Shown piece after piece: positions 20,921-34,337 of a DNA stretch of 34,584 nt; within the stretch, counting starts at the first letter, position 1; each line of letters starts with the position of its first letter. Under the pieces are notes generated by a model. The model saw only the letters and a program-made list of their open reading frames with translations, made no database searches and was not told where the DNA came from. The stretch is taken from positions 1 through 34,584 of the forward strand of contig JAFZVW010000058.1 of NCBI GenBank assembly GCA_017617635.1, written 5' to 3'. This DNA is from Bacteroidaceae bacterium. Its GTDB lineage: Bacteria > Bacteroidota > Bacteroidia > Bacteroidales > Bacteroidaceae. The position numbers and the translations under genes were made by a program.

Positions 20921-20960
20921 AATCCCTAACCTCACAAATGTGGAGTTAGGGATTATTTAT
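20921..20960. terminator. Bidirectional terminator between convergent genes
   Basis: A 10-base stem (20921-20930 with 20945-20954) with partial pairing inside the loop. ATTTAT follows on the + side. The TAA stop of the convergent gene (20946-20948 on the + strand) lies inside the right arm. It probably ends both the phosphomutase transcript and the long - strand operon. Confidence 0.82.
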
Positions 20961-21779
20961 AAATTCCTCCGCCTTGTCCAAAGTATCAATTTTGCCAACA
21001 TCCATCAGACGCAAGTCAGGTTGTATGTAACCATAAATCGGGCACCTGTTGCATATTGACAGATAGAAATCGATAATACCGAATTTCTCCGGCCATTTAT
21101 CCATAAGCCCAAGCAATCCTGTACTCATCTCGTGTATACCCGAGAAGGCGTACAAGAAGTAAGGACCTGAGCCGAACGGACGGAAGAAAGGTGAAATAAT
21201 CCTGTTGGCACTGTCTACAGGTGCCGTATATGTCGGATCAAAAGCCTCGCGGACAGCAGGGAAAGGAGTCCTAACTTCACCCGTCTTGACATTTGTCCAG
21301 CCGACCAGACGCATATTCTCATCGAAAATCAGATAACGCTCGGTTTCACGCTCACTTACGACAAGTTTAGCCCCATTGGGTTCAATTTTTCCATCACCTG
21401 AATCTCTCAGCAGTTTCAAGTCAATATTGCTTAGGATATCCACATTGTGGATCAGGAAATATCCCTCGGGATTATTATCTTTCAGCAATTTGGCAGCATG
21501 GGCAATTCCGCCCCCTGTCTCCAACAGCTGTGCACGTTCGTCCGAACAGGTTATACTTATATCCGTATGCTCCTTCCGGTAATCCAAAAGCCAGTTCTCA
21601 AGCATATCGGCAAAGTGATATATGTTTACTACAAAATCATCATACCCTGCCGCTGCAAGTTTTTCGATTACATGCTGAATCAAGGGTTTCCCTGCAACAG
21701 GAACCAAAGCCTTGGGCATACTGTCTGTCAGTGGCTTAAGTCTTGTACCAAGCCCCGCGGCAAATATCATAGCCTTCAT
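20946..21779 (-). CDS. MurU-like sugar-phosphate nucleotidyltransferase
   Basis: 277 residues. The N-terminus has the nucleotidyltransferase signature AAGLGTRLKPLTDSMPKAL (7-25) with the catalytic Arg and Lys, then KPLIQHVIEKL, the ETGGGI base-binding loop (87-92) and a metal-binding Asp114 in HNVD. The short length with no acyltransferase domain resembles MurU (N-acetylmuramate-1-phosphate uridylyltransferase), and the adjacent gene encodes an AmgK-like anomeric sugar kinase, the partner of MurU in Pseudomonas cell-wall recycling. Glucose-1-phosphate or mannose-1-phosphate transferase remains possible. It is the last gene of the nine-gene - strand cluster, 12 bases after the kinase, and its stop is buried in the terminator stem. 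Confidence 0.85.
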   Translation of the reverse strand: MKAMIFAAGLGTRLKPLTDSMPKALVPVAGKPLIQHVIEKLAAAGYDDFVVNIYHFADMLENWLLDYRKEHTDISITCSDERAQLLETGGGIAHAAKLLKDNNPEGYFLIHNVDILSNIDLKLLRDSGDGKIEPNGAKLVVSERETERYLIFDENMRLVGWTNVKTGEVRTPFPAVREAFDPTYTAPVDSANRIISPFFRPFGSGPYFLYAFSGIHEMSTGLLGLMDKWPEKFGIIDFYLSICNRCPIYGYIQPDLRLMDVGKIDTLDKAEEFINNP

Positions 21780-21791
21780 ATAGCGTGGATT

Positions 21792-23249
21792 TTATTCTAA
21801 TATCTGGTTAATATTCTGTTCACAGTGCGTGACTATTACCTTTATTCCGTATTTGTCATGCAAATGTTCGGCAAGATGCTGGGCACTGTATACACTTCGA
21901 TGCTGACCACCCGTACACCCGAAGCAGAACATCAGATCTGTAAAGCCGCGTTTCATGTAACGCTCGACATGTGCATCAGCCAACTTGTAGACGCTCTCCA
22001 GGAAAGTGACTATTTCACCGTCATCCTCCAGAAATTTGATAACAGCCGGATCCAATCCGTTTATACCCTTGTACGGTTCATAACGGCCCGGGTTATGCGT
22101 AGAGCGGCAGTCAAATACGTAACCGCCACCATTGCCGCTGGCATCCTCGGGAATACCCTTCTTGTACGAGAAACTGAACACACGCACAACCAATGGACCC
22201 TGTCCGTCATATTTGGAAACACTTGCAGTAAGTGCTTTGGGTCTATCCTTGCTTCTGGCAACCATCTCACCCAGCACCTGCCTCAGGTAGGGATATGGAC
22301 ATGCGTCAGGATTCCTAAGCAGAATATCCAGATTGTCTATTGCCGGTGCAATACTGTCCAGGAAATGTTTCTTCCGTTCAAAAAATCCGCGGAAACCGTA
22401 CGCACCCAAAACCTGCAACAGACGGAACAGAACCCAATGCGGAAGACTTTTGCGGAAAGCCTCCTCGTCTATATCTGCATACTTTTTCAGGGAATCCATA
22501 TATACACCCGTCAACTCCCCACGCAGTTCGTCCGAATACAATGCACTTGCCTGCCACAGGAACGAAACCAGGTCATAGTGTACAGGACCAAGCCTGCCAC
22601 CCTGAAAATCTATGAACGCAGGCATATCCTCAGCGTCCAGCATTACATTGCGTGCCTGAAAATCCCTATACATAAAACCGCGAAGAGTTTCCCCCGACAG
22701 GTCGTCAGCCATTTGACAGAAACACTCTTCCAGTTTCACCTCATGAAATTCAACTCCCGTGGCTTTCAGAAAACAATACTTGAAATAATTCAGGTCAAAC
22801 ATCACGTTAGTCCTGTCCATTTCACGCTGAGGATAGCATTTGTCAAAATCCAGCCCTACCATACCGTTCATCTGTATGTCCGGTAAGCGGCATATTGTAC
22901 GCCTTAGCAGTTCAATGTCCGCAGCACTGTATTTTCCACCTGCCTTACGCCCGCATTCCAAAGCCTGGAACAGTGACCTGTTTCCCAAATCAGTTTGCAG
23001 ATACCTGAGTCCGTCTTCACTCACTGCCAGTACCCTTGGCATAGGCAAACCGCGTTCTTCAAAATGATGTGCCAGGTAGCAGAATGTCCTGTTCTCATCC
23101 AGGTTATTGCCTACTGCACCGATCAGCGTACTACCGTCCTGAGCCGTTATTCTGAAATACTGGCGATTACTGCCGCCACCAGGTATCTGCACAATATCAG
23201 CAGCATCCTCATTCGAGTATTCCCTGTATAATTTCCTAAGCAGTTCCAT
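21792..23249 (-). CDS. AmgK-like sugar kinase fused to a RapZ C-terminal domain
   Basis: 485 residues in two parts. Residues 1-330 form an aminoglycoside-phosphotransferase-like kinase: nucleotide loop GGGSNRQYFRI (24-34), catalytic loop MYRDFQARNVML with Asp196 and Asn201, and metal Asp214 in FIDFQGG; this resembles AmgK, which phosphorylates MurNAc and GlcNAc at C1. Residues about 350-485 match the C-terminal half of RapZ/YvcJ: VFDCRSTHNPGR (378-389), GINGLDPAV (395-403) and FGCTGGQHRSVYSAQHLAEHL (443-463). RapZ's own P-loop kinase half is absent. In E. coli the RapZ C-terminal domain binds glucosamine-6-phosphate; the GCTGGxHRS loop is kept here, but the NPH histidine that I recall as a ligand is Gly387. 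It sits 14 bases after an ABC permease gene and 12 before murU-like. Confidence 0.88.
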   Translation of the reverse strand: MELLRKLYREYSNEDAADIVQIPGGGSNRQYFRITAQDGSTLIGAVGNNLDENRTFCYLAHHFEERGLPMPRVLAVSEDGLRYLQTDLGNRSLFQALECGRKAGGKYSAADIELLRRTICRLPDIQMNGMVGLDFDKCYPQREMDRTNVMFDLNYFKYCFLKATGVEFHEVKLEECFCQMADDLSGETLRGFMYRDFQARNVMLDAEDMPAFIDFQGGRLGPVHYDLVSFLWQASALYSDELRGELTGVYMDSLKKYADIDEEAFRKSLPHWVLFRLLQVLGAYGFRGFFERKKHFLDSIAPAIDNLDILLRNPDACPYPYLRQVLGEMVARSKDRPKALTASVSKYDGQGPLVVRVFSFSYKKGIPEDASGNGGGYVFDCRSTHNPGRYEPYKGINGLDPAVIKFLEDDGEIVTFLESVYKLADAHVERYMKRGFTDLMFCFGCTGGQHRSVYSAQHLAEHLHDKYGIKVIVTHCEQNINQILE

Positions 23250-23263
23250 TTAGCACAATCTTG

Positions 23264-24457
23264 TTAATGCTGTATATTATTAATCTTGTTACGTACGGCA
23301 AATATGTTCATCAACGATACAATGCCGAACAACACACCTCCCAATATCAGTGTAGGCAGAACCTTTCCCTCCTGCATATCCGGGAACATAGCCCATAGCA
23401 TACGCATATACCATCCACGCAAAGCAAACAGAATACCCAAGGCTATCAGCAAAACTGCGATATTCATGAATACCGTCAGCAGCTGATATGGCAGCGATAC
23501 ACGCGCTGTCGTATATCCAAGCAGCAACAGGTTCTGCAATTTGACTGTATTCTTCTGAACCAGCAGATATATGCTCAGCATCAGGATATAGAAACTCAGT
23601 ATTGAAATCAACAATCCTACACTCATAATCACGGCACTTACAATCTTCAGGAAATAAGTCATGCGCGATGCATCCAGCTTATCCTCCTCGATTTCATACC
23701 CGTGCTGTTTCATATACGTAGTTATGGCACTGTCCGTAGGATTGGCTACAGACATAATCACTCTTGTCGGGCATGTATCTGCATCAGGAGCAAAACGCCC
23801 GTTGCTCCAATGCATAAACTCCATCGGAACCAGGATTGTATTCAGCCGTGAGCTGAAACCGATTACCCTACCCTTCATGCGCTGCTCCAAGCCATGACCA
23901 CGCAAGACCACAGTCATTCCGATTTGGGAAACCACACCCTCGTTCATCTTCGGCAGCGAATGGCTCTGAGCAAACCCGAAGTTATATATTGCCAGATAAG
24001 TGCGAGGCAGGATAATAGGCACCTCCTCCTGGCCCTCACTCCATTTCCATTCGCTCCTGTCCGTGTCGACAAACTCATCCGGAACAGCCTCGAAAAACAT
24101 TTCGGTACCGAACTGCTCCACATTATCAATACCTATGTAGCAGGCAACCTTGTACTGACTTGCGACAAATCCCGCAACACTGTTTACAAAGGAACATTTT
24201 CCCAAATCCTCAATCTCTCCGGATGTAAACGAACTTGTCTCTCCGCCTGTCAATCCTCCCATCGTACTGATACGCTTGGAAGCTATCAGATAGTCATCAT
24301 GAATAAAACTGTCCTTGGATGTAAATACAGGTCCCAGGTCCTGATAGAACTGCATTGCAAGCAGCACTATCAGCATACCCATCAAGTTTGCGACAAAGAA
24401 TCCTGCAAGCTGCAATACACTTATATGCTGGCGCAAAAGTTTCCAAATCAACCCCAT
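23264..24457 (-). CDS. ABC transporter permease, FtsX-like
   Basis: 397 residues. One membrane helix at about 17-38 (LAGFFVANLMGMLIVLLAMQF), a large extracytoplasmic region (about 45-265), and three helices near the C-terminus (about 272-300, 318-345 and 362-385). This is the FtsX/MacB/LolC plan, though the conserved cytoplasmic REIGLRxSVGA segment of MacB is reduced to KLQNLLLLGYTTARVS. It follows the ABC ATPase by 3 bases, so the two form a transporter-like complex. Substrate unknown; with neighbouring sugar-recycling and envelope genes, an envelope role such as lipoprotein or peptidoglycan-enzyme control is possible but not shown. Confidence 0.85.
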   Translation of the reverse strand: MGLIWKLLRQHISVLQLAGFFVANLMGMLIVLLAMQFYQDLGPVFTSKDSFIHDDYLIASKRISTMGGLTGGETSSFTSGEIEDLGKCSFVNSVAGFVASQYKVACYIGIDNVEQFGTEMFFEAVPDEFVDTDRSEWKWSEGQEEVPIILPRTYLAIYNFGFAQSHSLPKMNEGVVSQIGMTVVLRGHGLEQRMKGRVIGFSSRLNTILVPMEFMHWSNGRFAPDADTCPTRVIMSVANPTDSAITTYMKQHGYEIEEDKLDASRMTYFLKIVSAVIMSVGLLISILSFYILMLSIYLLVQKNTVKLQNLLLLGYTTARVSLPYQLLTVFMNIAVLLIALGILFALRGWYMRMLWAMFPDMQEGKVLPTLILGGVLFGIVSLMNIFAVRNKINNIQH

Positions 24458-24460
24458 ACC

Positions 24461-25108
24461 CTACAACTTGATAATATAGTCATACTTCAGGTTACTCATG
24501 TGCTTTCCTATGCTCGTAACAATCATACCCGCACCCTGTTTCACAGCCTCCTCATGCATAATATCAGCCATAATGCACGAATTATCTTCATCCAGATGCG
24601 ATATAGGCTCATCAGCGACGATAAAGTCAAAAGGCTGAACCAAAGCCCTTATCATAGCAACCCTCTGCTGCTGACCGTAGCTCATCAGCCCCAGGCGACA
24701 ATCCGTTTTGTCTTCTATGCCAAGACGCTCAAACCACCCCCTTATCTCTGCATCCTGCTTATGTCCCGTCAGCTGGTTCTTTATTGCTATATTCTCCCAT
24801 GCCGTCAGTTCAGGAAACAAACGCAATTCCTGGAACAGGAGCGAAATGCTCCGCTTTCTTATCTCCGCCCACCTTGCGTCACCGTAAGACCTGATATCCT
24901 CGCCGTCAAACAGTATACGGCCGCTATAGTCATTCCTGTATCCAATAATATAGCTGCACATCGTACTCTTGCCGGTGCCGCTTGCAGCCTCCACCAAATA
25001 AGTCCTGCCTTTGTCAAAGGCAATGTCATGCCTCCACACATCGCTTGTCAGACACTTGTTGCCGGCAAATACGGCAGGCACGACATTCTCAAGGGTTATT
25101 CTATCCAT
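24461..25108 (-). CDS. ABC transporter ATP-binding protein with degenerate motifs
   Basis: 215 residues from the ATG at 25108, chosen because it begins MDRITLENV at the start of the ABC fold; a longer frame reaching 25156 would add 16 residues and run deeper into the previous gene. Motifs: Walker A is AASGTGKST (41-49, first Gly replaced by Ala), Q-loop Gln93, signature MSYGQQQR (142-149, LSGGQ altered to SYGQQ), Walker B FIVADE (162-167) followed by the D-loop SHLDE. The H-loop histidine is absent: the strand reads IVTSIG with Ser199 in its place. ATP binding is likely; hydrolysis may be slow. It pairs with the FtsX-like permease immediately downstream. Confidence 0.88.
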   Translation of the reverse strand: MDRITLENVVPAVFAGNKCLTSDVWRHDIAFDKGRTYLVEAASGTGKSTMCSYIIGYRNDYSGRILFDGEDIRSYGDARWAEIRKRSISLLFQELRLFPELTAWENIAIKNQLTGHKQDAEIRGWFERLGIEDKTDCRLGLMSYGQQQRVAMIRALVQPFDFIVADEPISHLDEDNSCIMADIMHEEAVKQGAGMIVTSIGKHMSNLKYDYIIKL

Positions 25109-26433
25109 TTGCCAATTATATCGTTCAAATCCGAGTTCAGGTTCCACTCCAGCCAAGCCCCTTCGTCATCTATGCGGAAACACATACTGCCTATTTCGCA
25201 CAGGGAACTGTAAACCCTGTTCGAATAACCCAATGCAGCCAGCAGAGGAGCAGCTACGTTCCACATCGATTCCGTATCAACCCTCAGATACAATTTACTG
25301 CCACGGATTTCGCTATAAACACTTTGCAGGGTCGTGTTGGGATTGAACCCCGTTGTATTCGGAATCAGCTTTGCAGAATTTGTCACATACAGGGTATTTG
25401 CATCAGCCATACCGATATGCGCAGCTATAACATCCCTGTTCCATTCACGTTCGTTCTCCATGAATTTCCCGTCCGTTACATGCGCAAGCAGCAGATACGA
25501 GAACCTGTGCAGGCTCAACTCCGGAATACTCACACACACATCACCGTCGGTGGCATTCAGCATCATGTCAGCATCCACGTTCATATTAAGCCCCATCAAA
25601 GCCGCTCTTGACAGCTCGTTCTTGCGCAGGAAACAAAGCAGGTCTTCACCCTTCACCCCCATGCCGAACCATATAACAGGCTTCGAACCCGTTATGCTCA
25701 GCATACTTGCATCCATCGGTTTCATGCAGTCAAGCAGTTCCTCCAGATGCCTGTTTACCAATGACGATCCTGTCACTACACGCGAATGAAGGCAAACCTG
25801 CTTATCCTTCACCTTTCCTTCCAGGGCAATCTCAACCTTGGACATATCGAATCCCTCTGGCAAACCCGGAACAATCACATTACGGATTCGCCCTGGCAAA
25901 GCCTCCATAGTCAGACGCACGGCCAGAGGTACATTGCTTCCGTCAATACTGTCAAGCAAGGCACAGCCCTCAGATTCCTTGTCCATCAATGATATCATCT
26001 CGTCCTGCAGAACCTCGTCCTTCAACGAAGCCATAGGACCCATCATCAATACACGCTTCGAATCATGACAGGCAACAAAGCTACCAATCATACCAAAGGT
26101 CAAGCCCCGTCGCGTACGTCTGTCACTGAGACAATCATCCAGGTCATCATCATCCGACACCAATGCAGCAAAACCCACGTTGCCCGACTTTGTAATAAAA
26201 CCGTATACCTTGCTTGCAAAGTCAATACCCGTACGGTTATCAATATTCTTCAGCTTACTCTCGTCAATGTCAGCCTCACCTATCAACCTGCGCACATCCA
26301 GTACTGCAACACCCGTGGCATCGTCAGGAACCATCGACCTTGCGTCACCGTCACGGAAAAACACACAATACAAGATCACATTCGCCATCAGGACAGCCAC
26401 CACTGCCAGCACGATAACAACTCTTCTATTCAT
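25096..26433 (-). CDS. Membrane-anchored protein of unknown function (DUF4836/DUF3352-like)
   Basis: 445 residues. An N-terminal membrane helix (VVIVLAVVAVLMANVILYCVFF, about 5-26) acts as an uncleaved anchor; the rest is probably periplasmic. The start of the soluble part (MVPDDATGVAVLDVRRLI) resembles proteins that open with a dispensable-looking 'P.da.avv.iD...l' strand in DUF4836 and DUF3352, but the match is by eye and weak. The rest alternates short beta-strands and helices with no catalytic motif I recognise; several Cys are scattered through it. It overlaps the ABC ATPase start by 13 bases, suggesting that anchor protein, ATPase and permease act together. It follows rsmE by 35 bases. 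Confidence 0.7.
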   Translation of the reverse strand: MNRRVVIVLAVVAVLMANVILYCVFFRDGDARSMVPDDATGVAVLDVRRLIGEADIDESKLKNIDNRTGIDFASKVYGFITKSGNVGFAALVSDDDDLDDCLSDRRTRRGLTFGMIGSFVACHDSKRVLMMGPMASLKDEVLQDEMISLMDKESEGCALLDSIDGSNVPLAVRLTMEALPGRIRNVIVPGLPEGFDMSKVEIALEGKVKDKQVCLHSRVVTGSSLVNRHLEELLDCMKPMDASMLSITGSKPVIWFGMGVKGEDLLCFLRKNELSRAALMGLNMNVDADMMLNATDGDVCVSIPELSLHRFSYLLLAHVTDGKFMENEREWNRDVIAAHIGMADANTLYVTNSAKLIPNTTGFNPNTTLQSVYSEIRGSKLYLRVDTESMWNVAAPLLAALGYSNRVYSSLCEIGSMCFRIDDEGAWLEWNLNSDLNDIIGKWIE

Positions 26434-34144: not shown

Positions 34145-34337
34145 ATAGACATAGGCCGTACCGGTTAGATTGGGATTCTCATCAATTAATTATCTGAAAC
34201 GAGCCAAGTTACAACTGCCAATGGCGGGCCACATTCCCTCGGGAATCTGTACTGCAGACGGTGGATTACAAAGGCAGCTGACAGCTCAAATCCTATTTAG
34301 CAAGGAGTTTCATCACATCATCGGTACGGCTTTTTTA
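34145..34337 (+). ncRNA. Structured non-coding RNA candidate (possibly 6S-like)
   Basis: The 306 bases between the DUF2147 gene and tRNA-Ser contain no convincing protein gene but a clear long-range fold. Bases 34153-34165 pair with 34320-34332 (13 pairs, two G-U), and the right arm runs straight into TTTTTT, so the closing helix doubles as a terminator. Inside, 34195-34200 pairs with 34307-34312 (6 pairs), 34201-34204 with 34284-34287, 34208-34211 with 34279-34282, 34215-34219 with 34273-34277, and 34229-34232 with 34261-34264, the last enclosing a hairpin at 34233-34246. The result is a rod with an uneven bubble (about 29 bases on the left, 7 on the right) near the base. Length about 190 bases and this shape suggest 6S RNA (Bacteroidales-1-like), but I cannot confirm the family. 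A near-consensus -7 (GATCTTTG) lies at 34132-34139. Confidence 0.65.

Follow-up and report, generated by a model that had tools for sequence, protein, structure and literature searches.

A 34,584-nucleotide stretch of Bacteroidaceae DNA (contig JAFZVW010000058.1; the window) carries a gene in which an APH/AmgK-type sugar kinase is fused to the C-terminal domain of RapZ (RapZ_C), and the gene 12 nucleotides downstream encodes a MurU-like nucleotidyltransferase. AmgK is the anomeric kinase of the Pseudomonas type for N-acetylmuramic acid (MurNAc) and N-acetylglucosamine (GlcNAc), and MurU is MurNAc-1-phosphate uridylyltransferase. We favor the possibility, at a probability of roughly 0.6, that the fusion is a Bacteroidota MurNAc kinase of the AmgK type in which a phosphosugar-binding RapZ_C domain controls the kinase/MurU step in cis. 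In this scenario the kinase half (approximately residues 1-340) would phosphorylate the anomeric carbon of salvaged MurNAc, and possibly of GlcNAc too, and the MurU-like enzyme would convert the product to UDP-MurNAc. The RapZ_C half (residues 345-485), which keeps the Cys-Thr-Gly-Gly-x-His-Arg phosphate pocket without His190, the basic tail or the N-terminal domain of RapZ, would most likely bind a phosphorylated sugar or amino sugar and adjust flux through kinase and MurU in the same polypeptide or complex, and not through RNA. The features on which the argument rests are these:

21792..23249, minus strand: kinase-RapZ_C fusion gene, 485 amino acids, ATG start (open reading frame, Pfam and NCBIfam)
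22518..23198, minus strand: APH/AmgK-type kinase domain, residues 18-244 (PF01636, E 8.9e-15; NF045759, E 1.5e-13, below cut-off)
22647..22670, minus strand: catalytic loop YRDFQARN, residues 194-201, with Asp196 and Asn201 (both invariant in 154/154 kinases)
22608..22610, minus strand: Asp214, in IDFQGG (invariant in 154/154 kinases)
21822..22193, minus strand: RapZ_C domain, residues 353-476 (PF22740, E 2.4e-30)
22122..22139, minus strand: glycine-rich loop SGNGGG, residues 371-376 (absent from the four RapZ proteins aligned)
22086..22088, minus strand: Gly388, at the position of E. coli RapZ His190 (Gly in 153/154 Bacteroidota loci)
21894..21917, minus strand: phosphate loop CTGGQHRS, residues 445-452 (CxxGxxRS; Cys, His, Arg and Ser invariant in 154/154)
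20946..21779, minus strand: MurU-like nucleotidyltransferase, 277 amino acids (PF00483, E 1.7e-17; NF045761, E 6.5e-33, below cut-off)

The 485-residue fusion had been proposed in the initial annotation, as had the adjoining MurU-like enzyme, and both are borne out by Pfam and NCBIfam. The APH model scored 55.5 bits against a cut-off of 23.2 and the RapZ_C model 105.6 bits against 27, the best NCBIfam names for the protein were RapZ (89.7 bits, cut-off 244, hence below equivalog level) and AmgK, and the best NCBIfam family of the neighbouring transferase was MurU. Among solved structures, the C-terminal half is related to E. coli RapZ and the N-terminal half to the APH protein 3csv. The architecture is not a chance product of one assembly, because 39 of 41 genomes in a set of relatives (the window's own included) match the fusion at E <= 1e-20; three of these depart from the simple fusion, being a kinase only (G026), a partial match (G033) and a frame with an internal stop (G028).

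The kinase half keeps the catalytic residues of the APH family. Asp196, Asn201 and Asp214 are present as first claimed, the last at what we take to be the position of the metal-binding Asp, so that the catalytic Asp, the Asn and the metal Asp of the family are all accounted for. Asp196, Arg200, Asn201, Asp214, Gln216, Tyr225 and Asp226 are invariant in 154/154 kinases of RapZ_C-bearing loci or genomes, and the same seven residues occur in 5/5 compared kinases without RapZ_C. The His found in the catalytic loop of Aeromonas kinases and of those from family f33, a group without RapZ_C, is replaced among the 154 by Tyr (138), Phe (10) or Ile (6).

Linkage to the MurU-like gene extends well beyond the window. 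We surveyed one even draw of 296 Bacteroidota genomes, each of which, the window's own (85% complete) apart, is at least 90% complete with no more than 5% contamination. RapZ_C was present in 36 genomes, every one of which also carries the kinase half; the kinase half itself was found at E 1e-5 in 100 genomes, made up of these 36, G049 and 63 from family f33. A MurU-like match is present in each of the 36 (weakest 2.8e-22) and lies within 1.5 kb in 28 of them. The two halves are fused in 27 of the 36, encoded by adjacent genes in six (all of family f20, in the order kinase, RapZ_C, MurU-like), interrupted by a stop in one and unlinked in two. In family f33 a MurU-like gene stands directly 3' of the kinase in 59/63 genomes. 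Among relatives of the Parabacteroides distasonis fusion in genome contigs, of which the best 80 of 587 were considered, 78 have a MurU-like gene downstream within 1.5 kb, and of 30 loci from the set of relatives (window included), read with 0.9-1.5 kb of flank each, 20 have one on the same strand within 1.5 kb. Taken together, the family matches and the survey support an AmgK-type kinase with a closely linked MurU-like partner, and we consider the kinase and MurU roles likely. As to mobile elements, 48 plasmid records match, four of them over at least 80% of the query and all four from Bacteroidales; patterns drawn from the kinase half gave 68 matches in viral contigs, none of which was a relative.

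A functional link comes from Tannerella forsythia ATCC 43037, a MurNAc auxotroph, which has the fusion with a MurU-like gene overlapping its end (L139). In the passages cited here, the introduction of PMC5790795 describes the organism as lacking glmS, glmU, murA and murB, with which our own model search agrees in that MurA and a full GlmS were not found in this strain. Its anabolic route has been assigned to AmgK and MurU (in the portion cited of PMC7670621), and these two T. forsythia enzymes, produced in E. coli, serve as the positive control for labelling with MurNAc probes (in the section cited of PMC13041923). T. forsythia has four APH matches, three of them over the cut-off, and of the three, all scanned, only the fusion matches AmgK models. 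By elimination, then, the published T. forsythia AmgK would be this fusion, and by analogy with that organism (PMC13041923, same section) the fusion of the window may be expected to have MurNAc/GlcNAc 1-kinase activity. Another T. forsythia protein of the APH family (362 amino acids, L194:1213-2298) matched no NCBIfam model at E 0.001. In a 99% complete genome of another family (G220; L099, L100), MurA was not found by TIGR01072, and kinase, RapZ_C and MurU-like genes lie on different contigs; this is perhaps a second organism dependent on MurNAc salvage.

Several observations weigh against the reading that we favor. The AmgK model (NF045759) gave the fusion only 50.6 bits against an equivalog cut-off of 550, and the MurU model gave the transferase 114.5 bits against 250. 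Of the solved structures, a mannose-1-phosphate guanylyltransferase matches the window's transferase best. The search for MurU-like genes is a permissive one, with 142/296 genomes matching at E 1e-12, and one genome (G271) has a strong MurU-like match (8.4e-27) without a kinase match. In 10 of the 30 loci read from the set of relatives, a MurU-like gene was not found within the 0.9-1.5 kb examined. G026, G049 and family f33 have the kinase with no RapZ_C in the same genome or locus, and the domain is therefore dispensable for the chemistry. Finally, the published T. forsythia AmgK is equated with the fusion by elimination. The low model scores and the guanylyltransferase match would also fit a kinase/transferase pair acting on another sugar, such as a hexose or heptose, instead of MurNAc. 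We regard this as quite unlikely, since NCBIfam ranks MurU first for the proteins of both the window and a second locus (L093), and the T. forsythia orthologue has as its best solved match 4y7t, which we take to be Pseudomonas putida MurU, and as its second an entry named MurU. Furthermore, T. forsythia needs a MurNAc route and its fusion is the only scanned APH protein there to match AmgK. An Aeromonas AmgK-like protein (331 amino acids, translated from the match only) likewise fell under the AmgK cut-off, at 179.8 bits.

Turning to the RapZ_C half, it is the better conserved of the two; its identity to the window's protein exceeded that of the kinase in 151/151 loci (medians 65% versus 51%). 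Cys247, Thr248, Gly249, Gly250, His252, Arg253, Ser254 and Asp182 (E. coli numbers) are invariant in 154/154 loci, as are Arg184, Asn188 and Pro189 in all 156 aligned Bacteroidota rows, among which two loci occur twice (L060/L099 and L063/L102); the motif GCTGGQHRS occupies fusion residues 444-452. In E. coli RapZ the pocket consists of H190, T248, G249, H252 and R253, and H190A, G249W, R253A, C247A and C247S each abolish function (both from the passages cited of PMC9841335). The initial annotation was right that the RapZ histidine is a Gly in the fusion, although this residue is Gly388 and not Gly387 (NPG being residues 386-388). The position is Gly in 153/154 loci and His in one (L112); outside the phylum, the 12 domains compared carry His (nine), Tyr (two) or Phe (one) here. 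Asn236 is replaced by Arg in 151/154 loci and Arg238 by Phe in 149/154. Lys251 is Gln in 139/154, a change that is not specific, as Gln also occurs in three RapZ proteins from outside the phylum.

These substitutions bear on whether RapZ_C senses glucosamine-6-phosphate (GlcN6P) as it does in E. coli and so tunes salvage to amino-sugar supply. The E. coli domain alone binds GlcN6P with a dissociation constant of 10 nM (PMC7073468, passage cited), and the pocket Thr, Gly, His and Arg are kept in 154/154 loci. Nevertheless, the loss of His190, the Arg at 236, the Phe at 238 and the extra glycine-rich loop make for a different pocket, and several genomes retain the fusion although no GlmS match was obtained in them, namely T. 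forsythia, one 99% complete genome (G270) and 13 incomplete genomes of the window's genus. We found GlmS in 285/296 genomes overall and in 34 of the 36 with RapZ_C, the two without a match being G270 and the window's own genome. Within the genus it was found in 11 of 25 genomes (G000-G024), and 13 of the 14 others still match the fusion. As these assemblies are 61-92% complete, single absences are weak evidence; the gaps are nonetheless more numerous than the completeness values seem to explain. GlcN6P can be obtained by salvage too. What stands of the proposed GlcN6P sensor is thus the set of phosphosugar pocket residues, and what does not is a sensor of the E. coli type, given the Gly at 190, the tails described below, which lack a strong positive charge, and the genomes in which GlmS was not found. 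We consider GlcN6P sensing rather unlikely. The ligand need not be GlcN6P, and a phosphosugar remains likely because the pocket is otherwise intact.

Could RapZ_C be a genuine RNase adapter, acting in trans on amino-sugar genes through a bound small RNA? Homology to RapZ and the retention of Lys170 in 128/154 loci speak for this, and the remaining evidence makes it very improbable: (i) the RapZ N-terminal domain (PF03668) was found in 0/296 genomes at E 1e-5, whereas the same search finds it in 6/14 control genomes, and it is not among the Pfam matches of the fusion; (ii) the net charge of the tail has a median of 0 (range -4 to 7; n=147 proteins, triple fusions left out), only 1/147 reaching +5 or more, as against +7 in E. 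coli RapZ; and (iii) Arg238 is Phe in 149/154 loci and Arg211 is frequently replaced by an acidic residue. The tail is not a strict mark, since an Azospirillum RapZ has only +2 and a basic tail is therefore not common to all RapZ. For Bacillus subtilis YvcJ, UDP-GlcNAc is the reported ligand and evidence that it binds RNA is lacking (PMC7525490); the family is therefore not tied to RNA.

In six genomes of the window's genus (L005, L006, L016, L017, L019 and L023), kinase, RapZ_C and MurU are encoded in one frame of about 750 amino acids, with no stop and nearly no linker. One of these (L005) is the window's sister row on a quick tree (support 98), on which the triple-fusion state requires at least three changes. 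A phylum-level kinase tree of 64 chosen rows, rooted on f33 and the Aeromonas kinase, nests the split kinases, along with two that lack RapZ_C (L103, L104), among the fused kinases; splitting of kinase and RapZ_C may therefore be secondary, although long branches make this unsure. The triple fusions would fit a RapZ_C that is a mere dimerisation or docking module holding kinase and MurU together, as would the invariance (154/154) of Asp182, which is required for self-interaction of E. coli RapZ_C (PMC7073468, as cited above). We think this improbable, as a pure scaffold would require neither an invariant phosphate pocket nor the stronger conservation of this half.

A more provocative idea is that RapZ_C is itself an enzyme, Cys445 acting as in Cys-dependent phosphatases, for example on MurNAc-6-phosphate (MurNAc-6P) to give MurNAc (the MupP step), with the product passing to the kinase. 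The Cys, His, Arg and Ser of CxxGxxRS, which we take to be a Cys-phosphatase-like signature (Cx5R(S/T)), are invariant in 154/154 loci and kept in 12/12 domains from other phyla (two of them located by this motif). A hydrophobic run appears to precede the loop and a helical-looking stretch to follow it, as read from the sequence, and the domain sits in a salvage pathway as its better conserved half. Consistent with this idea, both C247A and C247S are inactivating in E. coli, where the authors suggest a catalytic -SH and report, in the pocket, a product of GlcN6P that has probably been chemically transformed (PMC9841335, passage cited). Against it, no phosphatase family appeared among the Pfam and solved-structure matches, and the published fold comparison gives part of phosphofructokinase (PMC5737377, in the part cited). 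The distribution of AnmK, one source of MurNAc-6P, does not help either; it was found in 24/36 RapZ_C genomes versus 181/260 others (p 0.70, not enriched), which counts against a need for AnmK-made MurNAc-6P, and the window genome gave no match to it. Its absence is likewise reported for T. forsythia (PMC7670621, portion cited above). We therefore rate an enzymatic RapZ_C as unlikely. Rather unlikely, too, is its broader form, in which one polypeptide would dephosphorylate MurNAc-6P or a like compound, rephosphorylate it at C1 and, in the triple fusions, uridylylate it, a complete phosphosugar-to-UDP-MurNAc salvage enzyme whose chemistry would have become a sensor in E. coli, leaving as its trace there the need for the Cys247 thiol and the transformed ligand. 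A catalytic RapZ_C is nevertheless the idea most worth testing, because CxxGxxRS does not vary in any aligned copy and the E. coli thiol data call for an explanation.

Directly upstream of the fusion gene (23264-25156) are two genes:

23264..24457, minus strand: 397-amino-acid protein without a Pfam match (tblastn match in 19/22 loci of the same genus)
24461..25156, minus strand: ATP-binding cassette (ABC) ATPase, a genus-level neighbour (nearest NCBIfam model FtsE, below cut-off)

The 397-residue protein, which matched no solved structure either, may be a permease, judging from its position beside the ATPase; in three of its 19 matching genus loci it lies, by tblastn, on the far side of the kinase/MurU-like pair. 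Rfam gave three matches over the window, none near the fusion or MurU-like genes; one is a Bacteroidales-1 RNA, suggested to be 6S RNA (RF01693, 135 bits), at 34154-34337 before a tRNA-Ser gene. Between 18000 and 31000, 17 promoters were found versus 18.7 in shuffles and 15 terminators versus 11.3. The RapZ_C-less kinase of G026 (L104:3955-5711) is followed by a gene for a monofunctional peptidoglycan transglycosylase. Stand-alone RapZ_C genes in L099 and L102 adjoin a secreted endonuclease-like protein and a major facilitator superfamily transporter, respectively, which gives no consistent hint. E. coli RapZ_C also matches 26 Streptomyces records, of which one was examined. Two actinomycete plasmids (L208:2486-2869 and L209:2438-2980) encode stand-alone RapZ_C proteins of 127 and 180 amino acids annotated as 'RNase adapter RapZ', and a NUDIX gene adjoins the domain in L209 and lies two genes on in L208.

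The same label has been given to relatives of the fusion from the plasmid set in P. distasonis and Bacteroides finegoldii; the suspicion that automated naming hides the kinase was therefore well founded. Given that the RapZ N-terminal domain went unmatched in 296 genomes, the name misleads. In the open-access literature searched (subscription journals lay outside it), no paper joins RapZ with AmgK, nor RapZ with Bacteroid- terms. Should the MurNAc kinase reading be correct, it would tie MurNAc salvage in many Bacteroidota, T. forsythia included, to a definite gene and architecture, and Bacteroidota proteins labelled 'RNase adapter RapZ' would be sugar kinases. It would also separate RapZ_C from an RNA role, nature having transplanted the domain to a protein whose kinase rate could serve as a readout of the pocket, and would bear on the requirement of E. 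coli RapZ for the Cys247 thiol. The architecture suggests a new control, or a chemical extension, of cell-wall recycling in these bacteria.

How, then, does the fusion compare with known systems? It resembles AmgK in being an APH-type kinase with the Asp/Asn/Asp catalytic set, encoded directly before a MurU-like gene, and differs in falling far below the equivalog cut-off, in carrying a C-terminal RapZ_C and in its loop, YRDFQxRN as opposed to HRDFH in three compared AmgK-like kinases. The neighbour has MurU as its best family and is paired with a kinase gene as MurU is, but it has 277 amino acids against 226 model positions, falls below the equivalog cut-off and in six relatives is joined to the kinase. 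The loop of RapZ_C fits the CX5R cysteine phosphatases, under the definition that we assume above, but no profile of theirs matched, and the fold comparison in print favors phosphofructokinase. With E. coli RapZ and B. subtilis YvcJ the fusion shares PF22740 with its GCTGGxHRS pocket and D182, R184, N188 and P189 (E. coli numbers); unlike them, it has no N-terminal P-loop domain, has Gly in place of His190, lacks a strongly basic tail and is joined to a sugar kinase.

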